NCBI GenBank assembly: GCA_017450705.1
Contig: JAFSTC010000041.1
Span: forward strand, 1-45,320
DNA length: 45,320 nucleotides
Direction: 5' to 3'
From: Lentisphaeria bacterium
Lineage (GTDB): Bacteria; Verrucomicrobiota; Lentisphaeria; Victivallales; Victivallaceae
The notes under the pieces were generated by a model, which was not told the origin of the DNA, searched no databases, and was given only the letters and a program-made list of their open reading frames with translations. Positions 9,395 to 21,825 of the stretch are shown in pieces. A program made the position numbers and the translations under genes. Position 1 is the first letter of the stretch, and each line of letters begins with the position of its first letter.

Positions 9395-10192
9395 ATGAAC
9401 AAAAAAACAACAGTCTCCGCATTCTCCAAACGCCGCGCGGCCGGGGAAAAGCTGGTGATGGTCACCGCCTACGACGCCCCCGGGGCCGCCGCCGCCGCCC
9501 GCGCCGGGATCGACATCCTTCTCGTCGGCGACTCTCTCGCCATGACGGTCCTCGGCTACGACAACACCCTTCCCGCCACCATGGACGAAATGATCCATCA
9601 CACCCGGGCCGTCCGCCGGGGCGCCCCCGAAGCCTTCATCGTCTTCGACATGCCCTTCATGAGTTACCAGACGAGCATGGAAAAGGCCCTCGAAAACGCC
9701 GGACGCGCCATGAAGGAGTCCGGCGCCGACGCCGTCAAGTTCGAGGGCGGAGAAGAGTACGCCGAACTTGTCCGCCGCCTTGTCAGCGCCGGGATCCCCG
9801 TCATGCCCCACATCGGGCTCCTCCCCCAGCGCATCCAGGCCGTCGGCGGGTACAAGGTCACCGGCCGCGGCGGCGACGCCGACCGACTCATGCGCGACGC
9901 CAAAGCCTTCGAAGAGGCCGGAGCCTTTGCCATTGTCCTCGAATGCGTCTCCCGCGAAACAGCGAAAAACATCACCGAAGCCCTTTCCATCCCCACCATC
10001 GGCATCGGTTCCGGTCCCGAGTGCGGCGGCCAGGTCCAGGTCTTCCACGACGTCATCGGCATGTTCGACGGCTTCACCCCCAAGCACAGCCGCCGCTACG
10101 CCGAGGCCGGAAAGATCATCACCTCCGCATTGGCCGCCTACGCCGACGACGTGCGCAACGGCCGCTTCCCCGCTCCCGAAAACTGCTTCTGA
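9395..10192 (+). CDS. panB: 3-methyl-2-oxobutanoate hydroxymethyltransferase
   Basis: PanB makes ketopantoate from 2-oxoisovalerate and methylene-tetrahydrofolate, the first committed step to pantothenate and CoA. The 265-aa length is standard. Recognisable motifs are VMVTAYDAP (residues 21-29), the metal-binding LLVGDSLAM (42-50), GYDNTLPATMDEM, FDMPFMSY, KFEGG and HIGLLPQ. ATG 9395 is chosen because AGGAGG precedes it and MNKK starts the family-typical N-terminus; the frame is open further upstream but that part overlaps the previous gene. No panC or panD is in the window. Confidence 0.95.
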   Translation: MNKKTTVSAFSKRRAAGEKLVMVTAYDAPGAAAAARAGIDILLVGDSLAMTVLGYDNTLPATMDEMIHHTRAVRRGAPEAFIVFDMPFMSYQTSMEKALENAGRAMKESGADAVKFEGGEEYAELVRRLVSAGIPVMPHIGLLPQRIQAVGGYKVTGRGGDADRLMRDAKAFEEAGAFAIVLECVSRETAKNITEALSIPTIGIGSGPECGGQVQVFHDVIGMFDGFTPKHSRRYAEAGKIITSALAAYADDVRNGRFPAPENCF

Positions 10193-10207
10193 CAAGGAGT
10201 TGAACTT

Positions 10208-11128
10208 ATGAAATACGTCGACATCCACGCCCACGCCTTCCGCAAACCCTATCCCTTCGTCACCCGCTTCTGCACCCCGGAGGAACTTCTGGAGCGCTAC
10301 GACCGCTACGGCATCGAAATGGGCGCCGTCCTCCCCGTCGTCAACGCCGAAGTCTACCTGCCCCAGGCCAACGAGGACATCCTCGACATGGTCCAAGATC
10401 ACCCCGACCGCCTCTTCCCCTTCTGCAACGTGGACCCCCGCGCCCTCATCAACCGATCCGACGCCCCCCTGGACATCGTGCTCCAGTACTACAAGGACTC
10501 CGGATGCAAGGGCGTCGGCGAGATCATGCCCAATATGGAGTTCATGGACGACCGCGTCCAGAACCTCTTCCGCTGCGCCGAAAAAGTCGGGCTCCCCGTC
10601 ACCACCGACGGCTCCGACCGCCCCGATGCCGACTTCGGCCTCTGCGACGCCCCCGGTCTCCCCGGACTCGAACATACCCTCCAGCGCTTCCCCAAACTCA
10701 AATTCATCGCCCACGGTCCCGTCTTCTGGGGAGAGATCTCCCTCCGCCGCCGACCCGCCCTCTGCAAACCCGTCTTCGGCACCGACGGACTCCAGCACGG
10801 CTCCCCCGGCAAACGTCATCAGAAACTCACCGAGGAAGGCGTCGCCTGGGAACTCCTCCGGGAATTCCCCAACCTCTACGGCGAACTCTCAGATGCCTAC
10901 TGGATCCTCCGAAACGACGAAGCCTTCGCCGTGAGATTCATGATAGAATTCCAGGACCGCCTCTTCTTCGGCACCGACTGCTGCAACAGCACCTGCGAAG
11001 CCAATTTCGAGATCAAACTCTGGTTCGACCGTCTCCACGACTCCGGCGCCCTCCCCGAAACCGTCTGGAAAAAGATCTGCCGCAACAACGCCATCGACTT
11101 CTTCGGTCTTCCCCTCCAGAAGGCTTGA
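10208..11128 (+). CDS. Amidohydrolase-2 family metal-dependent hydrolase
   Basis: A 306-aa TIM-barrel hydrolase starting at ATG 10208 behind AAGGAG. Metal ligands are visible: HxH in DIHAHAF, His in FIAHGPVFWGE, and Asp in FFGTDCC. This family includes decarboxylases and lactone or amide hydrolases, so the substrate is open. The segment around residues 179-205 (SLRRRPALCKPVF and following) is Arg/Lys-rich and does not resemble the family loop that I would expect between the His and the NLYGELS strand. It may be a genuine variant. Only 15 bp separate it from panB, and both share a strongly C-ending codon bias, so they are probably one transcript. Confidence 0.7.
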   Translation: MKYVDIHAHAFRKPYPFVTRFCTPEELLERYDRYGIEMGAVLPVVNAEVYLPQANEDILDMVQDHPDRLFPFCNVDPRALINRSDAPLDIVLQYYKDSGCKGVGEIMPNMEFMDDRVQNLFRCAEKVGLPVTTDGSDRPDADFGLCDAPGLPGLEHTLQRFPKLKFIAHGPVFWGEISLRRRPALCKPVFGTDGLQHGSPGKRHQKLTEEGVAWELLREFPNLYGELSDAYWILRNDEAFAVRFMIEFQDRLFFGTDCCNSTCEANFEIKLWFDRLHDSGALPETVWKKICRNNAIDFFGLPLQKA

Positions 11129-11241
11129 CCCGTGGGAGTCATGCGGGGGCGCTTGCGCCGCCCCCCGCACCCCCCGGCGCCCCGTGGCACGGGGAGGCGG
11201 GTAGGCCGGAGGCACGCAGGGCCGCGGGCTGGAAATGCGTG

Positions 11242-11302
11242 TTGCAAAATAAATAGCTCCTCTTCCCGCTTTTCTGCGGAAAGAGGAGCTACATATTTTG
11301 CA
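11242..11302. repeat. TTGCAAAA-ended palindromic element 1
   Basis: TTGCAAAATA at 11242-11251 and TATTTTGCAA at 11293-11302 are perfect inverted ends. Inside them TAGCTCCTCTT pairs with AAGAGGAGCTA, and CCGC with GCGG, around a TTTTCT loop. The whole 61-bp unit can fold into one long hairpin. Elements with the same TTGCAAA ends and internal hairpin lie at 11434-11519, 12755-12866 and 24075-24160. It could also act as a terminator of the panB transcript. Confidence 0.75.
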
Positions 11303-12727: not shown

Positions 12728-12754
12728 AGAGTCGCGATATCTTCAAGGGATGGA

Positions 12755-12866
12755 TTGCAAAGGAAAACGCCAAATTTCATGGTTCTCCATCCGCTTGCAA
12801 GGTGTGTCGCATAGTGACGCACCCTTGTCTTGCGCGGAGAACGGGCATTGGCGTGCCTCCTTTGCA
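12755..12866. repeat. Long imperfect hairpin, TTGCAAAGG-ended palindromic element 3
   Basis: The left arm TTGCAAAGG...CGCCAA...GGTTCTCC...GCAAGGTGTGTC pairs in order with GACGCACC...GGAGAAC...TTGGCG...CCTCCTTTGCA on the right arm, around a loop at about 12812-12818. It belongs to the TTGCAA family but is longer. It lies in the presumed 5' leader of the RiPP transcript. It is followed at about 12875-12900 by a second GGGGG/CCCCC hairpin with TTTTTT in its loop. Confidence 0.65.
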
Positions 12867-13035
12867 GTGCAAACGGGGGTGCGCCTTTTTTGTGCCCCCC
12901 GGACGCGGATCCGTTTCGAACGGTCTTGTCCGTTATCCGGGGAAAGGGATTCCCCGGCGGAAATACAACCCGCGGCGGGATCGGGGGGCCGATGCCGCCG
13001 CAATGAGGGAAGATCCCTCGGAAAGGAGCCTTGTC

Positions 13036-13170
13036 ATGGCTTACAAGAAACCCCAGATGGTCGCGAAATCCTCCGCGAAGAAGTCCTACGTCGCCGGTTG
13101 CCCGGCAAATTCAGGTGCAACCTGCTGTAGTGCTTACAACACTTCTTGTGAAATTGCTCCCCGCGACTGA
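13036..13170 (+). CDS. Cys-rich RiPP precursor peptide 1 (44 aa)
   Basis: ATG 13036 follows a GGAG ribosome site. The N-terminal part reads MAYKKPQMVAKSSAKK then SYVAGCP. It is Lys-rich, has no classical double-glycine site, and is almost identical to that of the second peptide 32 bp downstream. The putative core after GCP contains further Cys as a CC pair and a single C near the end, giving four Cys in all, plus many Ser, Thr, Asn and Gly residues. Small Cys-rich peptides placed directly before PqqD-domain radical SAM/SPASM enzymes are the known layout of sactipeptide- and ranthipeptide-type RiPPs, where thioether bridges are made. It resembles what I remember of the FibroRumin-type Cys-rich peptides, but I cannot verify that name. 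The frame is open far upstream (to 12724), but that part is noncoding leader. Confidence 0.8.
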   Translation: MAYKKPQMVAKSSAKKSYVAGCPANSGATCCSAYNTSCEIAPRD

Positions 13171-13201
13171 CCACAAATAACTATTGCAGAAGGAATTTAT
13201 T

Positions 13202-13339
13202 ATGAACTACAAGAAACCCAAGATGGTCGCGAAATCTGTCGCGAAGAAATCCTATGTCGCCGGATGTCCGGAGAAGACAATTGGCAACGGAACGGCCTGT
13301 TGGAACGAGCCGAGTTGCGAAATCAGACGTGTAAAGTAA
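13202..13339 (+). CDS. Cys-rich RiPP precursor peptide 2 (45 aa)
   Basis: ATG 13202 is preceded by GAAGGAA. The leader MNYKKPKMVAKSVAKKSYV and the AGCP junction match peptide 1 at 20 of the first 23 residues. The core differs: it has three Cys (in AGCP, ACW and SCE) with a Trp after the second and a basic end, EIRRVK. The conserved spacing C-(15)-C near the end (TSCEI in peptide 1, PSCEI in peptide 2) suggests that the first and last Cys have the same role, while the middle one or two vary. Leader conservation with core divergence is what is expected when one enzyme set processes both. The peptide is followed 17 bp later by a strong hairpin. Confidence 0.8.
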   Translation: MNYKKPKMVAKSVAKKSYVAGCPEKTIGNGTACWNEPSCEIRRVK

Positions 13340-13356
13340 TTCCGCACAGTCATACT

Positions 13357-13396
13357 GACTTCTCCCGGCATCCCTGAACAGATGCAGGGAGAAGTC
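13357..13396 (+). terminator. Hairpin after the precursors, likely partial terminator
   Basis: GACTTCTCCC (13357-13366) pairs with GGGAGAAGTC (13387-13396), with an inner GCATC/GATGC extension. It is followed by TTCCCCACCTCATTTTTATC, which has only a distant T-run. Placed between precursors and enzymes, it would let precursors be made in excess over maturases. Confidence 0.6.
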
Positions 13397-13444: not shown

Positions 13445-14443
13445 ATGAATATTGCCATCCAGTTTTCCCATTCCGGAAAGGAAGAAATTCCTGACAGACT
13501 GGCGCTTCATTCAAGACATTTCATCCCCCAGCCGAATGCTCCTTCCGGTTATTATCAACGGAGTTGGACAACTGCCCCGAATCATGGCAGAAAATTCCTG
13601 CAGGATGAGGGGAAATATGTTATTCCGGCAAGCGGGAAAGAGACTGTCCGAAAGGATCTTGCACTCTGGTGCGAAGCCGAATGGAATACCATGGCAAGGC
13701 GATTGAGTCAGCTCCCCAACGTTCCCGCAACCAGTATATATCCGGGTTGGCTTCATTGTTTTTGTCCCGTTCCGCCCGTCTTTACCGGTCCGTATGGACA
13801 GAATACGGATCCGTATGTTTTCGGGCCGCATTTCATTTACAGCAATTGCCGGCAGAATAATCGGGTATTGAGGCGCATCCGTTTTCAGCCGGGCGACATG
13901 ATCCTTTTCGGATCCATGAAGAGTAACCTCCAATCGCCCCGTTTCATGCTGGATACCGTTTTTATTGTGGGGGATATCCCTGCTTATAAAATTGGCAAAG
14001 GGGAAAAACTGTCCGATATCAGACGTGGATGCGGTTCCCTGATTACGCGCAATTTTGAAGAGACAGTGCTCAAACCGATTCTAAACGGACAACCTTATCC
14101 CGGAGCCGTATGTTTGCCGACAAACTTTACACTGTATTTCGGAGCATCTTTTCAACGGCCGTGGAAGGCAATCTATTCTTTTGTTCCCATAAAAGTTCCC
14201 GGGCTGACGAAATCAGCCAGCGGCAATGGCGACATCGGCTATGAAAGACTGACCTTTACGGCTCAAGATATGCGCTATCTGCCATTGCTTTCCCAAGTGA
14301 TCGATTTGAATTTGAACCCGCGGCGGGGAATTCATCCTTGCCCGGTCAATCCATCATTTGATACGGTCAGGATATGGCATGAACTGGTCAATTTTGCTAT
14401 TTCACGAGGATATGTTCTCGGAACGTATTTCAAGGAACCGTGA
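13445..14443 (+). CDS. Unrecognised 332-aa protein in the RiPP operon
   Basis: I do not recognise this gene with confidence. It is soluble: no signal peptide or membrane segment. Blocks that look conserved are HFIYSNCRQN, LRRIRFQPGDMILFGS, RFMLDTVFIVGD and TLYFGASFQRPW. The aromatic-rich YSNC block followed by a GDMILFG turn and a DTVF strand is reminiscent of PUA/ASCH-like or nucleotide-modification-associated (Nmad-type) domains, an idea based on memory of the fold patterns only. ATG 13445 (after GAAGAGA) is preferred; a TTG at 13424 would add seven residues. Its base composition is clearly more AT-rich than the flanks. The stop is 1 bp from the next start, so it is co-transcribed with the maturases and may bind the peptide, the cofactor or RNA. 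Confidence 0.5.
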   Translation: MNIAIQFSHSGKEEIPDRLALHSRHFIPQPNAPSGYYQRSWTTAPNHGRKFLQDEGKYVIPASGKETVRKDLALWCEAEWNTMARRLSQLPNVPATSIYPGWLHCFCPVPPVFTGPYGQNTDPYVFGPHFIYSNCRQNNRVLRRIRFQPGDMILFGSMKSNLQSPRFMLDTVFIVGDIPAYKIGKGEKLSDIRRGCGSLITRNFEETVLKPILNGQPYPGAVCLPTNFTLYFGASFQRPWKAIYSFVPIKVPGLTKSASGNGDIGYERLTFTAQDMRYLPLLSQVIDLNLNPRRGIHPCPVNPSFDTVRIWHELVNFAISRGYVLGTYFKEP

Positions 14444-14444
14444 G

Positions 14445-15839
14445 ATGCTCATTCAACTTTCCCGCCACGCTTTTGTCCGGCATTTTGGCAATATGTCGGA
14501 AGTCATCAATCAGCGCAATGATGCCAAATTCTGGCTCCAGGATGCCGAACCGTTTTTGCGGTTCATCGACCGCACGCCTCGGAAGGAGGAGGAGATCATC
14601 CGGGACATCGCGGGCGTCTACGGGTGTCCGCCGGAGGATGTGGCGGAAGACTTCCGGGCATTTGCAGAAAATATATCCGGAGCGCTTCTGCGGGGAGAAA
14701 CCGAAGCGGAATTGTCCACGCAGGAACCGGAGTTCCGTTATTATACGAGACAGGAAGCCGAGGCGGAAACAGCGAGATCCGTTTCCCTTTCAGTTGAACG
14801 ATCACAGGAAACCGATAATTTCAGTGACAGCGGCATCAATGATTTTCTGATCGCCCACAGACAGATCTCATCCCTGCATATCGATCTGACGGATGGTTGT
14901 ACCGAACGGTGCGTCCACTGCTATGTGCCGGAATACGGAACAAAAACCCTGTCTTTCGATGCCGTCTGCAAAGTTCTGAAGGAATACCGGGACATGGGAG
15001 GTCTCGAAGTGGAATTATCCGGCGGGGAACCGATGTGTCATCCGCAATTCCGCGAGATTTTGAGATACGCCCGGAACTGCGACCTGATGATCACGGTATT
15101 GTCCAATTTGACAGTGCTGGACGAAAAAACCGTCAAAACATTGTCTGATGTAAGAATCAAATATCTGCAAACCAGCGTTTACAGTATGATCCCGGAAGTG
15201 CACGATGCGATCACGCAGCGCCCGGGGTCTTTCGCCGAAACCATGCGCGGGATCGCTTTGATGCGGGAGTACGATGTCCCTATGAAGATCAATACCCCCG
15301 TTTTAAAAGAAAATTTTGGATCGTGGCGTACCGTCGAGGAGTTCTGCGCGGACCAGAATTATAAATTCAGCAGCAATGCGAGTCTGCTTGCCAGGGTCAA
15401 CCATGACTGCGGAAATCTCGACCACGGCTTGAGCGCCGCGCAGATGCACTCGTATCTCTCATCCTGCCAGAGCAGCAATCCGTGGGGGCCCGGAACATTC
15501 AATAAACAGCCGGATGACCCGATGTGCGAAGTATGCACCATTAAACTGCGTCTGGATGCGGCGGGGAATTATTATCCCTGCGTTGCGGGACGCGGTCTCG
15601 TGCTGGGGAATTGCCATAAAGTGACCATACGGGAGGCATGGAACAGTGAACTGGCCGAAAAACTCCGCGCGTTGAAACAGCGGGATTTCCCAGAGTGTTT
15701 CCAATGCAAAAGCAGATGTTTCTGTCTGGCCTGTCCCGCCGCCAATTTCAATGAAACGGGCGACCTTTACCGGCATCGCCCCGAATATTGCATGGAGCCG
15801 AAAATCAAATATCAACTCTGCAAGGAAAAATCATGCTGA
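14445..15839 (+). CDS. Radical SAM/SPASM peptide maturase 1, with PqqD/RRE-like N-terminus
   Basis: A 464-aa enzyme. Residues 1-95 form a PqqD-like domain (starts MLIQLSRHAFVRHFG), the module that binds RiPP leader peptides. The radical SAM core has CTERCVHC, with the CX3CX2C cluster ligands Cys152, Cys156 and Cys159, followed by VELSGGEP. A C-terminal SPASM domain (from about residue 361) has CEVCTIKLRLDAAGNYYPC and later CFQCKSRCFCLACPAANFN plus a final EYC, enough to bind two auxiliary Fe-S clusters. Enzymes of this build make thioether or C-C bonds on Cys-rich precursors. Start 14445 has AAGGA upstream; the frame is open further up but that overlaps the previous gene. It is clearly paralogous to the next gene, with more AT-rich codons. 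The stop overlaps the next start by 7 bp. Confidence 0.88.
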   Translation: MLIQLSRHAFVRHFGNMSEVINQRNDAKFWLQDAEPFLRFIDRTPRKEEEIIRDIAGVYGCPPEDVAEDFRAFAENISGALLRGETEAELSTQEPEFRYYTRQEAEAETARSVSLSVERSQETDNFSDSGINDFLIAHRQISSLHIDLTDGCTERCVHCYVPEYGTKTLSFDAVCKVLKEYRDMGGLEVELSGGEPMCHPQFREILRYARNCDLMITVLSNLTVLDEKTVKTLSDVRIKYLQTSVYSMIPEVHDAITQRPGSFAETMRGIALMREYDVPMKINTPVLKENFGSWRTVEEFCADQNYKFSSNASLLARVNHDCGNLDHGLSAAQMHSYLSSCQSSNPWGPGTFNKQPDDPMCEVCTIKLRLDAAGNYYPCVAGRGLVLGNCHKVTIREAWNSELAEKLRALKQRDFPECFQCKSRCFCLACPAANFNETGDLYRHRPEYCMEPKIKYQLCKEKSC

Positions 15840-17293
15840 TCCGTCTTTCCAAAAACACGTTCGTCCGCAATTACGGGAACTTCACCTACGTTTTCCACAA
15901 ACTCAACGCCTACGACGAGATGTTCGACGGGGCGGAGGTGTTCATGCGGTGGATCACCCGGGAACCGCGGGAGAAGTCGGAGATCCTGAAAAACATCTGC
16001 GGCGTCTACACGGAGACCGATCCGGCTGAGATCGCGGCGGATTTCGAGGAGTTCATCGCCCCCATGATCGCGGCGGGGGCGGTCCTGACGGGAAACACGC
16101 CCGCCGAACTGGACGCGCAGGAGGTGAGTTTCCGCTACGACATGCCGGATCCGAAGACCGAACGGGACACGACGCCGGTCACGAAGGAAGAAGCGGAGAA
16201 GATGCCTCAACTCGTGCTCAAGAAATACTTCGAGGAGCATCCGACGCTCTTCGACATCCAGCTGGACATCACGCAGGCTTGCACGGAGCGGTGCATCCAC
16301 TGCTACGTGCCGGAGTACAATCCGCTCTTTTTGCCGTACGAAAAGATCCGCGAGGTGATTGACGAGTTCCGGGAGATGGGCGGACTGCACGTCGGGCTCT
16401 CCGGCGGGGAGTGCATGCTGCATCCGGATTTCGAAAAGATCGTGCGGTACATCCGGAGCAAGGACTGCACTTGCGGCATCCTCTCCAATCTCACGCTGTG
16501 CGACGACGGCAAGGTCGCTCTGCTGAAGGAGATGGACTGCGGAGTCCAGGTTTCGCTTTACAGCATGGATCCGGAGATCCACGAGAGCATCACCAAAAGG
16601 AAAGGGTCGTGGCTGGAAACGAAGACAGCCATCGAAAAACTGTACAAAGCCAATGTGCCTGTCACGATCAGCTGTCCCACCATGCGGAAAAATTTCGAGG
16701 GCTATCTGGAGGTCATGAAATACGCGGAATCCATGCACATGTTCGCGCAGACCGATTTCATCATGATGGCGAAGGCGGATCACGATTCCAGCAACCTGGT
16801 CAACCGTCTGACCCTGCCGCAGACCAAATGTCTGCTGGAAGACATCATTCTGCGCGACGTGCCCATGATGAAGGAGTATTTCAACCCGGACGTGAAGGAC
16901 GAACTGCAGACGCCGGAAGAACGCGCCGAACAGCACATGTGCGGCGCCGGGACCGACAAGATGTGTCTCAATGCCGACGGGAATTATTACGCCTGTTCCG
17001 GATTTCAGGATTTCCCGCTGGGAAACTGTTTCAAACAGACCCTGCGGGACGTGTGGGAGAATTCTCCGCAGATCAAGTATCTGCGCGGACTGCGGGGCAA
17101 GGACATCCCGAAGTGCATCCACTGCAAAGACCGGAATTACTGTTCCATGTGTCTCGTGCGCAATTTCAACGAGACCGGGGACATGCTGAAAGTCGCGGAG
17201 CATTTCTGCAAGGTGGCCCGTCTCAATCACGAGATCGTGGACGAGCTCCATGCAAAACTGGAAAAAGAGTACCGGGCGGAACACGGGAAATGA
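15833..17293 (+). CDS. Radical SAM/SPASM peptide maturase 2, with PqqD/RRE-like N-terminus
   Basis: A 486-aa paralogue of the previous gene with the same order of domains: PqqD-like residues 1-95 (MLIRLSKNTFVRNYG), radical SAM cluster CTERCIHC (Cys150, Cys154, Cys157), HVGLSGGECM, and a SPASM domain from Cys370 (CGAGTDKMC, NADGNYYAC, CIHCKDRNYCSMC, EHFC). Codon use is GC-rich like the rest of the chromosome, unlike maturase 1, so the pair may have different histories. ATG 15833 follows AAGGAA. The stop overlaps the next gene as ATGA. With two precursors of different Cys pattern, the enzymes may each serve one peptide or act in sequence on both. Confidence 0.88.
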   Translation: MLIRLSKNTFVRNYGNFTYVFHKLNAYDEMFDGAEVFMRWITREPREKSEILKNICGVYTETDPAEIAADFEEFIAPMIAAGAVLTGNTPAELDAQEVSFRYDMPDPKTERDTTPVTKEEAEKMPQLVLKKYFEEHPTLFDIQLDITQACTERCIHCYVPEYNPLFLPYEKIREVIDEFREMGGLHVGLSGGECMLHPDFEKIVRYIRSKDCTCGILSNLTLCDDGKVALLKEMDCGVQVSLYSMDPEIHESITKRKGSWLETKTAIEKLYKANVPVTISCPTMRKNFEGYLEVMKYAESMHMFAQTDFIMMAKADHDSSNLVNRLTLPQTKCLLEDIILRDVPMMKEYFNPDVKDELQTPEERAEQHMCGAGTDKMCLNADGNYYACSGFQDFPLGNCFKQTLRDVWENSPQIKYLRGLRGKDIPKCIHCKDRNYCSMCLVRNFNETGDMLKVAEHFCKVARLNHEIVDELHAKLEKEYRAEHGK

Positions 17294-18036
17294 TCTGCGA
17301 CGCCCATGTGCATGTCGGCTATTTTCCCCGCAAGGGGCGGGAGGAACCCTTTTACTACTCGCCGCGGCGGATATTGGGGATCCTGAACCGGGCGGGCGTG
17401 GATGAATTCATTTTCTCTTCAACCAACGCGGTCTGGGATTTCGAAGGCGACGCCATGCACCGCGAGGCCCGGGAAATGCGCCGTCTCGCCGGGAAACGCG
17501 CCCACGCCTTTTTCTGGGTCACGGACGAATATCTGAAACGCGATCCCGATCTGGCGAAGCTGCCGTTTTTTTACGAAGGATTCAAGCTCCACGGCGGGGA
17601 GACCCCGTGGCTGGAGCATCCCCGGCTCCTTTCCCGGGTCCTCGCCGTTGCCCGGGAACGCAAATTCCCCGTCCAGATCCATACGGGGGAAAAGGACGAC
17701 AAGTCCGCCAATCCGATTTCGGGCTATCTGCCGTACTGCCGGAAATACCCGGAAGTCAGATTCGATCTCGCCCACGGCAAGCCCGCGGGGGACGTCCCCC
17801 GGGCGGTCAACGACAACGGCAACGTCTACGTGGACTGCGCCTACTGTTCCGCCGACGTCGTAAAAGGATGGCTGGACGCCGGAGCGCGGGAGGACCGGAT
17901 CCTCTTCGGCAGCGACATCCCCGTCCAGCAGAGACTTGCCGATCTGCCGCTGACGGCTTATCTGCGGAAGACCCTGCGGGGCTTTTCCTCCTCGAAAATA
18001 CGCTTCGAAAACTTCAGGGATTTTTTGAAAAAATGA
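17290..18036 (+). CDS. Amidohydrolase-2 family metal-dependent hydrolase in the RiPP operon
   Basis: A 248-aa TIM-barrel hydrolase. Metal ligands appear in order: HxH in CDAHVHVGYF (residues 6 and 8), His in VQIHTGE, His in DLAHGKP, and Asp in LFGSDIP. It is short for the family, nearer to TatD-like size. It overlaps maturase 2 upstream and the glycosyltransferase downstream, both by ATGA, so it belongs to the operon. In this context it could hydrolyse an amide of the modified peptide, including leader removal, since no dedicated protease is present; that is inference. An unrelated housekeeping role is possible. The in-frame open stretch upstream of 17290 is noncoding shadow of maturase 2. 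Confidence 0.72.
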   Translation: MICDAHVHVGYFPRKGREEPFYYSPRRILGILNRAGVDEFIFSSTNAVWDFEGDAMHREAREMRRLAGKRAHAFFWVTDEYLKRDPDLAKLPFFYEGFKLHGGETPWLEHPRLLSRVLAVARERKFPVQIHTGEKDDKSANPISGYLPYCRKYPEVRFDLAHGKPAGDVPRAVNDNGNVYVDCAYCSADVVKGWLDAGAREDRILFGSDIPVQQRLADLPLTAYLRKTLRGFSSSKIRFENFRDFLKK

Positions 18037-20027
18037 AGGAGATCGCCTACATTTCGCTTTGCCCCCTGGGCGACGTTGTCTGCTGTATGAACCAGCTGGA
18101 GCATCTGAAAAAGCTCTACGCCCCCTGCCGGATCACGGTTTTCGCCATCCCGCTCATCGCCGAACTGATGAAAAACTCCGCATGGGTGGACGAGGTCGTC
18201 GTGCTGAAGGGCAATGTCCGTTATGACCTCGAGCTGAGTGATTTCGTCCCCCCGGAAACGGAATTCGACGTTGTTTTCAACATGAGTTATTATCCGGTCT
18301 ACGTCGAATTGCAGAAAAGATTGAAATGCAAGGTCCGGTACGGCTCCGAGTGTCAGCCGCTGATCACGAAGGAACTGTGCGAAGCCAATTTCGACAAGTG
18401 GGTCAGTCAGGAATACTGGGACAACGTGACGCTCAAAAAATACCGGACGGTCTGCGAACAGATGGCGGAGCCGATCCGGCTGGTCGATCCGGAGTTCGAT
18501 TTCGTTTATCCGACGCTTACGCCGGAGACCTATCGTCTGGAGCCCTATCCCGGGGAACTGCCGGAAAAATTCGTGCTGTTTTTGCCCGGGACCAGCTGGA
18601 TCGGGAAATACTGGCCGGTCACGAAGTATCTCGCGGCCGCAAAGACTTTGAAAGCCGCGGGCGTGGATGCGGTCTTCGCCATCGGCCCGCAGGACCGGGT
18701 TCTGGTGCCGGAACTGGAAAAGAGCGGCTTCCCCGTGCTGGACACGCTGCCCTTTTCCCAGCTGGCGTATGTGGCGGATCGGGCGGAGCTTGTCATCGGC
18801 AACGATTCGGGGCCCATGCATTTCGCCGCCGCGTTCCACCGCAAAACGATCCACATCATCGCCAGCGGCTCCGCGTTCAACTGGTATCCCTACGAAGAAC
18901 CGGTCCACTCGCTTGTCATGCCGGACTGCGCAAGCGAAGAAAAATGCAACTCATGTCGGAAAACCTGCATCGGGAAGATCTCCGTGGAGAAGGTGGTGCG
19001 GAAACTCTTCGAAAAACTGGCTCTCCCGCAGCCGCGGATCCGGGAGGTCGCCTTCATGGTGCAGGACCGCATCGGCGATTCCCTCGTCAACATCGACGCC
19101 CTCGAGGCCGCGGCGAAAATCTGCGCGCCGTGCAATGTCACCGTTTTCGCGACGGAGACCATGGCGCCCTTCTTTCGGGCATACGCCTTTGCCGACCGGG
19201 TGATCGAGTTCCGCGGGGCGGAGACGGTTTTGCCGGACCGGGAATATGACGCCGTATTCAATTACCGCTACGACACGGCGTCGCTGGAGCTCCTGCGCCG
19301 GATGAAATACCGGACGGCTTACGGTTACGAACAGATCGACTTCCCGGAGTCCGTCTGCAAAGAGGTCTTCACGAAATATCTGCCGCTCTCGATGTGGGAC
19401 GACGTGAAACTGCGGCGCTACACCAGCGTCACGGAACAGGGCGCGTCTCTGATCCGGCTGGTCGATCCGGCGTATCACTGCAACGCGGTCTCCCTGGCGG
19501 AAAACACGCTGTGCACAGATTTCGCGGAACTGCCGGAAGGTCTGCTCGACCGCGACACGGTGCTGATCGTCCCCGGAGCCAGCAGCAGATACAAAGACTG
19601 GGGACTCGAAAATTACCTCCGTCTGGCCGCCGACCTGAAAGAAAAAGGGAAAAAACCGGTTTTCATTCTCGGCCCGCAGGAGAAAGATCTTTACGGGAAA
19701 CCGGCGGAAGGAGCCGGGTTCGAGACAGCGCTCGACCTTCCGCTGACTTCGATCGCCGCCCTGGCGTTCGCGTGCCGGCATCGCGGTTTCACCGTCGGCA
19801 ACGACACCGGCGTGATGCATCTCGTCCGCGCCTGCGGGTGCCCCAGCGTGACGGTCTGTTTCGAGGACACCAGTCTGACCTGGGCGCCCTACGCGGCGGA
19901 CATCCACAAAGTCGTTCACGCGGACTGCGCCGACTACGTTTCCTGCCGCAGGTGTGAAACGCGCGATTGCCGCAAAGACATGACCTATGAGAGAGTTTGG
20001 CATGAAGTCCGGCGTTTTCTCGCATGA
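18033..20027 (+). CDS. Double GT9 (heptosyltransferase-like) glycosyltransferase
   Basis: A 664-aa protein made of two fused glycosyltransferase-9 units. Unit 1 (about 1-330) starts IAYISLCPLGDVVCCMNQLE and has LPGTSWIGKYWPVTKY and IGNDSGPMH (from residue 255). Unit 2 (about 335-664) starts VAFMVQDRIGDSLVNIDALE and has VPGASSRYKDWGLENYL and VGNDTGVMH (from 588). Each unit ends with a Cys cluster, CNSCRKTC and CRRCETRDC. GT9 enzymes usually transfer ADP-heptose to LPS or, in some bacteria, to proteins; single-unit proteins of about 350 aa are the norm. Lying between RiPP maturases and an exporter with overlapping ends, it could glycosylate the peptide. LPS modification is the main alternative. 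Confidence 0.8.
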   Translation: MKEIAYISLCPLGDVVCCMNQLEHLKKLYAPCRITVFAIPLIAELMKNSAWVDEVVVLKGNVRYDLELSDFVPPETEFDVVFNMSYYPVYVELQKRLKCKVRYGSECQPLITKELCEANFDKWVSQEYWDNVTLKKYRTVCEQMAEPIRLVDPEFDFVYPTLTPETYRLEPYPGELPEKFVLFLPGTSWIGKYWPVTKYLAAAKTLKAAGVDAVFAIGPQDRVLVPELEKSGFPVLDTLPFSQLAYVADRAELVIGNDSGPMHFAAAFHRKTIHIIASGSAFNWYPYEEPVHSLVMPDCASEEKCNSCRKTCIGKISVEKVVRKLFEKLALPQPRIREVAFMVQDRIGDSLVNIDALEAAAKICAPCNVTVFATETMAPFFRAYAFADRVIEFRGAETVLPDREYDAVFNYRYDTASLELLRRMKYRTAYGYEQIDFPESVCKEVFTKYLPLSMWDDVKLRRYTSVTEQGASLIRLVDPAYHCNAVSLAENTLCTDFAELPEGLLDRDTVLIVPGASSRYKDWGLENYLRLAADLKEKGKKPVFILGPQEKDLYGKPAEGAGFETALDLPLTSIAALAFACRHRGFTVGNDTGVMHLVRACGCPSVTVCFEDTSLTWAPYAADIHKVVHADCADYVSCRRCETRDCRKDMTYERVWHEVRRFLA

Positions 20028-21825
20028 TCTTCTGGTCGCGAAACAGCTCTTCTTTCTGGCGAAGATCTTTTTCAGGGACCTGAAGAAACTGCTGGCAGTC
20101 AGTCTGGTGCTGGGATTTTTCGCCGAAACGCTGGCCATGCTCATGCCTCAGCTGACCGGGAACCTGGCCGGTTCGCTCGCCGACTGGACGGCCTTCCGGA
20201 GCGCCGCGTTTCTGTTTCTGGGGGTGGGGATCGTCCAGTTCCTGTTCGCTGTGAGCAACGACGTTTTCGACCGTCTGCTGAAAGACCGTCTGGAGCGGGA
20301 TTCCTGGTGCGCCGTGCACAGACAGCTCCTGACGATGGATCCCGATTACTATCAGACCCACGCCGCGGGGGAGATGCTGCTGAACATCAACTCCGGAAGC
20401 GGGATCGCCTATGAACTGCTGGAGCTGATCTGCTTCCCCGTCTTTTACGGAAGCGGCATGATCGCGGGGCTGATCCTGCTGACCCGTTCGCTGAGCGGGA
20501 TCCATCTCCCGGGCTGGCTGGTGGCGGCGCTGGTCGCGGCCATGGCGGCGCAGCCGTTCCAGACCTGGTATTTCGGGAAGCTGATCGCAAAGGCCTGCGT
20601 GAAGGTCCGCGAGAGCGGGACGCAGATCAACGAGGAGATCCTGAACGATCTCCACGCGCCGGCGGAGCTGCGGCTCCTGAACGCCGTGAAACGGCGGCTG
20701 GAGAAAATGTTCGCCGTCCAGCATCTGCTGGCCCTGCGCATGGATAAAGCCATGCTGCTGCACATCGCCAGCCGCTACTCCATGAGTCTGCTGATCCTGC
20801 TGTTCCAGTTCGCCATCGTCATTTCCGTTCTGATGAATTACGATTTGAAGGGAACGGTCGTCCGCGACCTGATTTCCTCCATTCTGCTGATCCCGCTGAT
20901 GTTCAATCATCTGAACAAGCTGCAGCAGATGTACAACGGGGTCAAGGACCGGGAACCCTACGTCGCGGCGGTCTACGAATTGTTCCGGCAGAAAAAGCGC
21001 CTTCCCGCCGGGACCCTCGACGGCCCCGGAGATCCCGCGGGCGGGATCGAGCTTGCCGGGGTCTCCTTCTCTTATCCGGAGGGGCCGCCGGTCCTGAAGG
21101 GGGTCGGCCTGTCGCTGCGGCCCGGCGGGACTTACGGACTGCTCTCCGCTTCCGGCGAGGGAAAATCGACCGTTCTCAAACTGCTCGGCCGACTCTATCT
21201 GCCCCAAGCCGGGGAGATCACCTGGGGCGGGACCGACATTTTCCGCATCCGCGAGGAGATCTACCGCGAAAGATGCGTCCTCTGTTCGCAGTTCCCGCTG
21301 TTCATAAAGGGGACGGTCCGCGACAATTTCAGGCTCCGGTCCCCGGAGATCTCCGACGAAGAGATCATCCGTCTGTGCAAGGAGACGGGATTCGCCGCCG
21401 TCATGGACACGCCCGAAAAAGCGATCCCCGATCTGGAACTCGCCCTCGGCGCGGACAACCTCTCCGGCGGGCAGAGAAGACTGCTCGCCCTCTCCGGGTG
21501 TCTCTCCGTCCATCCCCGGATCCTTCTGCTGGACGAACCCTCCTCGGGCGTGGACGGCCCCACGATCCGGGATCATCTCGTCCCCCTGCTCCAACGCCTG
21601 AAAGAACGAAATCTGCTCATCGTCGCGGCGGATCACAACGTGAACTTTCTCGCCGCCGTGTCGGACGAGATCTTCGTTCTGAAAGACGGCGCAGTCGCCG
21701 AACACGGCAAAACCTGTGCCCTCCGCCGCCGTCCGGACGGCCTGTTCCGCGCGTTCGCGGCAAAATGGAACGATCCGCAAGCCGAAGGCGGCCGTTTCCC
21801 GCTTTCCCGCCCCGGGAAAACTTGA
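19987..21825 (+). CDS. ABC transporter, fused membrane and ATPase domains, likely peptide exporter
   Basis: A 612-aa half-transporter. The N-terminal 330 residues hold about five or six membrane segments of the type-1 exporter fold. The C-terminal ATPase has a Walker A at 387-395 reading SASGEGKST, where the usual first Gly is Ser; a signature LSGGQRR at about 493; Walker B ILLLDEPSSG; and the switch His in VAADHN. There is no C39 peptidase domain, so it would not cleave the leader. It overlaps the GT9 gene; ATG 20002, preceded by GAGAG, is an alternative start five codons in. As the last gene of the operon it probably exports the finished peptide, or serves as self-immunity. Confidence 0.82.
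   Translation: MREFGMKSGVFSHDLLVAKQLFFLAKIFFRDLKKLLAVSLVLGFFAETLAMLMPQLTGNLAGSLADWTAFRSAAFLFLGVGIVQFLFAVSNDVFDRLLKDRLERDSWCAVHRQLLTMDPDYYQTHAAGEMLLNINSGSGIAYELLELICFPVFYGSGMIAGLILLTRSLSGIHLPGWLVAALVAAMAAQPFQTWYFGKLIAKACVKVRESGTQINEEILNDLHAPAELRLLNAVKRRLEKMFAVQHLLALRMDKAMLLHIASRYSMSLLILLFQFAIVISVLMNYDLKGTVVRDLISSILLIPLMFNHLNKLQQMYNGVKDREPYVAAVYELFRQKKRLPAGTLDGPGDPAGGIELAGVSFSYPEGPPVLKGVGLSLRPGGTYGLLSASGEGKSTVLKLLGRLYLPQAGEITWGGTDIFRIREEIYRERCVLCSQFPLFIKGTVRDNFRLRSPEISDEEIIRLCKETGFAAVMDTPEKAIPDLELALGADNLSGGQRRLLALSGCLSVHPRILLLDEPSSGVDGPTIRDHLVPLLQRLKERNLLIVAADHNVNFLAAVSDEIFVLKDGAVAEHGKTCALRRRPDGLFRAFAAKWNDPQAEGGRFPLSRPGKT

Follow-up and report, generated by a model that had tools for sequence, protein, structure and literature searches.

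Several described systems pair a short precursor peptide with a radical SAM (rSAM) maturase or with an RRE that recognizes its leader. In Streptococcus orisratti, the maturase NxxcB joins a cysteine to the beta carbon of the asparagine within the NxxC (Asn-x-x-Cys) core motif of NxxcA, giving a thioether (PMC8326336, PMC13361665). The freyrasin maturase PapB connects Cys with Asp within CX3D motifs and accepts other spacings as well (PMC9413430). Lasso peptide RREs bind the motif [Y/W]xxPx[L/V/I/F/A] (PMC13381572), and the bottromycin amidohydrolase PurAH/BotAH removes a follower peptide (PMC10885120). In the open-access literature searched, we found no description of rSAM-modified peptides from Lentisphaerota, Kiritimatiellota or Akkermansiaceae. 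Here, we describe a locus within 45,320 nucleotides ("the window") of a Lentisphaeria bacterium (GCA_017450705.1, contig JAFSTC010000041.1, positions 1 to 45,320, forward strand). An earlier note, made from the sequence alone, had pointed to two short open reading frames (ORFs) in the window with a common leader and divergent cores. Leaving the type of bond aside, these ORFs very probably encode precursors of rSAM-modified RiPPs.

Results

Two probable precursor peptides with a common leader

Both peptides are encoded on the forward strand. Peptide 1 (13036..13170; 44 aa; MAYKKPQMVAKSSAKKSYVAGCPANSGATCCSAYNTSCEIAPRD) consists of the leader MAYKKPQMVAKSSAKKSYVAGCP and the core ANSGATCCSAYNTSCEIAPRD, which contains a CxxxNxxC motif, and has cysteines at positions 22, 30, 31 and 38. 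Peptide 2 (13202..13339; 45 aa; MNYKKPKMVAKSVAKKSYVAGCPEKTIGNGTACWNEPSCEIRRVK) carries the same type of leader, followed by the core EKTIGNGTACWNEPSCEIRRVK, with cysteines at positions 22, 33 and 39. The contrast of four cysteines including a CC pair with three cysteines was thus as noted earlier. A Shine-Dalgarno sequence preceded each ORF (GGAAAGGAGCC and AGAAGGA, respectively). No model in Pfam or NCBIfam recognized the peptides, and a profile of the family matched them with E-values of 1.6e-21 and 1.6e-24. Precursors of this length are easily missed in the annotation of metagenome-assembled genomes (MAGs). The remark that the second gene has only 45 codons was right about its small size, which holds equally for both genes.

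The positions of the two ORFs and the agreement of their leaders in 20 of 23 residues were confirmed, as was the divergence of the cores thereafter; shuffling the second leader 100,000 times gave at most 12 matches. Among the leader codons, 15 were identical, five differed synonymously and three non-synonymously. The leaders had 58 of 69 bases in common, so with five synonymous differences the protein sequence was kept while the DNA drifted. The contrast between two sequences, which had been called direct evidence, is insufficient alone, since two paralogues could differ by chance. The evidence for enzyme-recognized precursors comes instead from comparison of the wider family.

Distribution of the family

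About 40 distinct relatives were detected, distributed over Victivallaceae, Kiritimatiellae, Akkermansiaceae and other Verrucomicrobiota MAGs. Where sufficient flanking sequence was available, each of them adjoined an rSAM/SPASM gene. No peptide with testable flanks lay apart from a maturase. Viral contigs yielded no relatives of the peptide. A scan of 84,980 genomes with an alignment of the second maturase (rSAM2) gave 26 family loci (43–92% identity). These came from Victivallaceae/Lentisphaeria, Kiritimatiellae, Akkermansiaceae and other Verrucomicrobia MAGs, and many carry names that refer to ruminant or horse gut. With a profile built from the first eight peptides, precursors were detected at 25 of the 26 loci (29 precursors in total); the contig of the 26th begins inside the gene of the first maturase (rSAM1). 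Two different cores were present at some loci.

A third precursor copy (G000:C62:89400), accompanied by a separate rSAM pair and amidohydrolase, is encoded on another contig of the source genome. Precursors were present in six of the 34 genomes of the genus, namely the source genome and five others. Wider searches detected the peptide in 12/161 genomes of one Kiritimatiellae order and in 6/195 genomes of the Akkermansia family, so the system is patchy and accessory. Weak peptide matches in G329:C62, G337 and G254 looked like chance, and L064–L066 were merely distant rSAM genes. At a distant relative from Spirochaetales (L063), a 39-aa ORF (MEYRKPQNLGLVNGARDFGSKFGNNPYGKCDCPFPAFAG; 9770-9886) was located directly before a related rSAM gene (9905-11293). 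This candidate YRKP peptide hints that the family of YxxP leaders may extend beyond the PVC group.

Conserved leaders and variable cores

Conservation was unequal along the peptide. Across 34 close relatives, mean pairwise identity was 0.73 for residues 1-22 and 0.31 beyond, with 0.20 for shuffled cores. Residues M1, P6, A10, A20 and C22 were invariant in the family, and Y3, K4, K5, V9, V19, P23 and the last core Cys were nearly so. The common SCEI motif described earlier is real in the window pair; family-wide, only its Cys is kept, followed by E, M or other residues. The leaders contain the motif Y3-x-x-P6-x-[I/V/M/L] (YKKPQM and YKKPKM in the window), and the YxxP element fits the motif bound by lasso-type RREs. 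The boundary between leader and core is uncertain, because Cys22 lies in the conserved part without an assigned role.

The contrast was also seen at five Akkermansiaceae loci, at which rSAM2 was 95–99% identical and the leaders 91–100%, with cores of 30–74% identity; even a maturase identity of 99% went with differing cores. Apart from the core end, the core DNA of these loci diverged about as much as the downstream non-coding sequence. A diversity-generating retroelement was considered and rejected: in the alignment of L055, L056 and L057, the changes affected all bases, and non-coding DNA further downstream had diverged about as far as the core.

Two rSAM/SPASM enzymes with RRE-like domains

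Downstream of the precursors come, in order, an orphan ORF, the two rSAM/SPASM genes, and then the genes for an amidohydrolase, a double GT9 protein and an ABC transporter. Several of these genes overlap at their start and stop codons. Both maturases, rSAM1 (14445..15839, forward strand) and rSAM2 (15833..17293, forward strand), combine an RRE-like domain with a radical SAM domain (CxxxCxxC) and a seven-Cys SPASM domain. The CxxxCxxC and SPASM cysteines were invariant among 25 rSAM2 sequences. The N-terminal 90 residues matched PqqD (PF05402) in 18 of 20 family members (best E-value 2e-6), and the scores of the window maturases alone were below the Pfam cut-off. In a profile search, the best solved relative of this domain was the lasso RRE TbiB1 (E-value 0.0023), an independent fit with the YxxP leader.

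A structure model of rSAM2 (pLDDT 90) showed the RRE-like domain as strands and helices; an earlier model from seven sequences (pLDDT 64.5) was set aside as poor. The model resembled CteB (top structural match, Z 26.6), anSME, SuiB and SkfB, in comparisons that also used Foldseek, and aligned with SuiB over residues 2-463 (Z 26.0). The closest solved enzymes were the peptide maturases SkfB, PqqE, SuiB and CteB. Neither maturase reached a cut-off in NCBIfam. Scores of rSAM2 against the sactipeptide subfamily models were 70 of the 850 bits required for AlbA, 54 of 300 for SkfB and 63 of 625 for StsB, and a maturase scored 62.8 bits against the PapB model NF047865 (cut-off 340 bits).

In a tree of 61 sequences, 26 rSAM1 sequences formed one branch (support 93/96), which with midpoint rooting was nested among the rSAM2 sequences; loci with a single enzyme branched early. 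The simplest reading is that one duplication of an rSAM2-like gene gave rise to rSAM1, the faster-evolving paralogue, with rSAM2 evolving more slowly. This reading is provisional because of long branches.

Other genes of the operon

The amidohydrolase gene (PF04909; 17290..18036, forward strand) usually lies directly after rSAM2. Its profile matched every two-enzyme locus but one, at which the contig ends inside rSAM2. Residues H9, H11, H134, H165 and D212 were kept in 26 aligned sequences, and this pattern (HxH, two further His and an Asp) fits a metal site. The conserved set comprises the precursor, two RRE-rSAM/SPASM enzymes, of which one appears to be a fast-evolving duplicate, and the amidohydrolase.

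A 332-aa ORF (13445..14443, forward strand) without a Pfam or NCBIfam match lies between the precursors and rSAM1. It had one good homologue (40%) among 100 related genomes, and it occupies this position solely in the source genome. It was rejected as a conserved component, as G027, G006 and G010 are without it. The sister loci L032 (9002-9394 region) and L035 (7949-8260) share a different inserted ORF (..KKQTxxxYDIPxLT..AIAMLLxAPNxTMT..) in matching positions, which suggests that precursor and rSAM1 flank a slot in which genes can be exchanged.

The double GT9 (heptosyltransferase-like) protein (18033..20027, forward strand) and the ABC transporter, a candidate exporter (19987..21825, forward strand), are linked to the operon mainly in Victivallaceae-type loci. 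No C39 peptidase domain was found in the transporter, and none of the eight operon proteins scanned matched a lasso cyclase or B2 protease. Pairs of a sigma-70-like factor and a Ser/Thr kinase were seen in the window from 21877 onward and near L031-L034, L036, L047, L052, L054 and L061. They were not counted as part of the system, as there was no background frequency for comparison.

Core motifs and number of enzymes

The motif CxxxNxxC occurred in 15 of 34 cores, with 0.5 expected. NxxC was present in 19 of 30 cores from two-enzyme loci and in one of eight from single-enzyme loci (Fisher p 0.016). Conversely, CxxC[EDY]R was found in 0/30 and 7/8 cores, respectively (Fisher p 6e-7); for both tests the loci are related, which overstates their strength. 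Single-enzyme cores end in CxxC[ED]R, for example at L061. This distribution suggests that rSAM1 may be linked to the Asn motif. In the window, NxxC is present in peptide 1 and absent from peptide 2 (NEPSC). The latter is one of 11 of the 30 two-enzyme cores without NxxC, so no single fixed linkage covers all of them.

RNA elements

A hairpin at 13005..13019 (forward strand), directly before the Shine-Dalgarno sequence of peptide 1, covaries across loci; 20 other precursor genes have a covarying 5-bp hairpin in the equivalent position. Among precursor genes with AGGA, the hairpin ended 2–5 bases before the Shine-Dalgarno sequence in 21 of 26, compared to 13 of 188 control ORFs, and its covariation score was 0.52 (0.15 when shuffled). 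In Kiritimatiellae loci, it is joined by another hairpin, whose loop is GGGU-like. A strong hairpin after peptide 2 (13357..13396, forward strand; z -5.05) is a possible attenuator or mRNA stabilizer.

Upstream of the operon lies a structured RNA (12754..12900, forward strand) of approximately 150 nt, with a core ACGCCAAA...UUGGCGU, a covarying outer stem and a terminator-like hairpin plus T run at its 3' end. Compensatory changes were observed in 12 of 26 pairs. Read by eye, its 3' part has two possible pairing partners, the conserved ACGCCAAA side and a GGGGUACGU-U-run segment downstream, an arrangement known from transcription attenuators. Within the phylum, 55 of 288 genomes contained the RNA, at about 110 places with 1–6 copies per genome (Lentisphaerota/Verrucomicrobiota), including a second copy in the source genome (G000:C62:88870-89013). 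Of the seven peptide loci in the genus, five have the RNA upstream of the peptide (twice in G000, and in G001, G006 and G010). It also occurred upstream of varied small accessory genes, and in genomes without the peptide. There was no gathering-level Rfam match in the window or at six loci, and one match to a miRNA (E-value 0.3) was dismissed as chance. The family is apparently new, and looks like an undescribed riboswitch- or attenuator-type RNA.

Discussion

The locus is best explained by a new family of rSAM-modified RiPPs. The computational analysis showed the order of the genes, the contrast between leader and core, the RRE-like domain, the complete Cys motifs for cluster binding and the association with maturases. 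From the leader motif and the enzyme domains, we infer that residues 1-22 are a leader whose YxxPx[IVML] motif would dock on the N-terminal RRE domains of both adjacent rSAM/SPASM enzymes. Both enzymes would then modify the variable Cys-rich core, most likely by linking Cys through a thioether to a carbon other than the alpha carbon (ranthipeptide type). Such non-alpha thioethers are favoured by the NxxC core motif and by the chemistry of NxxcB and PapB. Thioether formation in the cores is moderately likely, and the assignment of an Asn-Cys linkage to the NxxC cores, by analogy with NxxcB, is tentative. The amidohydrolase probably acts after the rSAM enzymes, perhaps by removing the leader or trimming side chains, and export of the product in this genus is probably the task of the ABC transporter. 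With two cores in one operon, the same enzymes would give two products, which may have a signalling or antimicrobial function.

The strength of the precursor assignment lies in the family, which bore out the reasoning of the earlier note. It had proposed enzyme-recognized precursors rather than metal-binding proteins, and the conservation contrast, the maturase linkage, the RRE-like domain and YxxP all support this proposal. Unmodified small Cys-rich metal-binding or redox peptides would account for the high Cys content and for the CC, CxC and CxxC patterns that occur. However, the number (1–5 after the leader) and spacing of the cysteines vary while the Cys-poor N-terminus is conserved, the opposite of what a metal site needs, and RRE-bearing rSAM/SPASM genes are linked at every testable locus; this explanation is highly improbable. 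Scarcely credible is a small lipoprotein with VAGC as its lipobox: [YF]VAGC, with Cys at position 22, has the resemblance, but the preceding residues (KKPQMVAKSSAKKSYVAG) are without the hydrophobic signal stretch that lipoproteins need. The peptide might also be processed into a small redox cofactor, in the way that PqqA yields PQQ and MftA yields mycofactocin, and the PqqE-like rSAM/SPASM fold, the PqqD-like domain and a linked hydrolase recalling MftE agree with such a role. Precursors of this kind keep their cofactor-forming residues, whereas here the core is nearly unconserved save for one terminal Cys and some loci have two different cores, making a cofactor quite improbable.

A variant of the RiPP explanation, with sactipeptide-type C-alpha thioethers, C-C cross-links or epimerization in place of ranthipeptide chemistry, is a more serious contender, though still somewhat unlikely. 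In profile comparison with the PDB, the sactipeptide maturase SkfB comes closest; SuiB (Lys-Trp C-C link) and EpeE (epimerase) are among the structural relatives, and chemistry is not fixed by sequence similarity. Against this variant, NxxC and CxxxN are enriched and Asn keeps a constant position, which points to the beta carbon as the acceptor. Returning to ranthipeptide-type RiPPs, a fuller scenario would have an RRE-rSAM/SPASM gene duplicated and an Asn-centred cross-link added by rSAM1, possibly as two thioethers meeting at one Asn in CxxxNxxC. The core would be hypervariable under near-identical enzymes, a dedicated metal-dependent amidohydrolase would finish the product, and at several loci of the genus transcription of the operon would pass through an undescribed RNA attenuator. 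Taken as a whole, this scenario is speculative and unlikely to hold in every part.

The system is compact and testable, with a fixed leader, two paralogous maturases whose respective tasks can be explored by comparison with single-enzyme loci, and about 40 cores that form a natural library. Near-identical enzymes that tolerate very different cores are of practical interest for making cross-linked peptides.

Each known system shares some of these features. Like thuricin CD (TrnC/TrnD), the cluster has two rSAM/SPASM enzymes and two precursors, with the RRE on the enzymes (PMC12093266); thuricin CD contains sactionines, whereas the cores here are polar with NxxC, and the enzyme pair apparently goes back to a duplication inside the family. 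SCIFF (CteA-CteB) is also a Cys-rich peptide of approximately 45 aa, and CteB was the top structural match, but the present precursors have 2–6 Cys in total and a different leader, and no SCIFF family model was among the matches listed. The lasso RRE-leader pair of TbiB1 has the YxxP leader motif and an RRE domain of the same type; in contrast to lasso peptides, the RRE here is fused to the rSAM enzymes, and no cyclase or B2 protease was among the operon proteins scanned. Bottromycin PurAH/BotAH, likened here by description, is a precedent for RiPP cleavage by an amidohydrolase of the cluster, although bottromycin has no such leader. Freyrasin (PapA/PapB), a ranthipeptide, shares the Cys-X3-acceptor spacing and an rSAM/SPASM maturase, with six C-X3-D motifs in PapA (PMC9413430) and usually one C-X3-N here. 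NxxcA/NxxcB, an NxxC ranthipeptide or streptococcal RaS-RiPP set beside our family by description, likewise has a short precursor and an rSAM maturase, and its Asn-x-x-Cys core motif recurs in most two-enzyme cores here. No Rgg/SHP regulator was noticed in the present family. Further differences are that two maturases are present, that CxxxN occurs as an additional half-motif, that an amidohydrolase is linked, that the leader contains YxxP and that the hosts belong to the PVC group.
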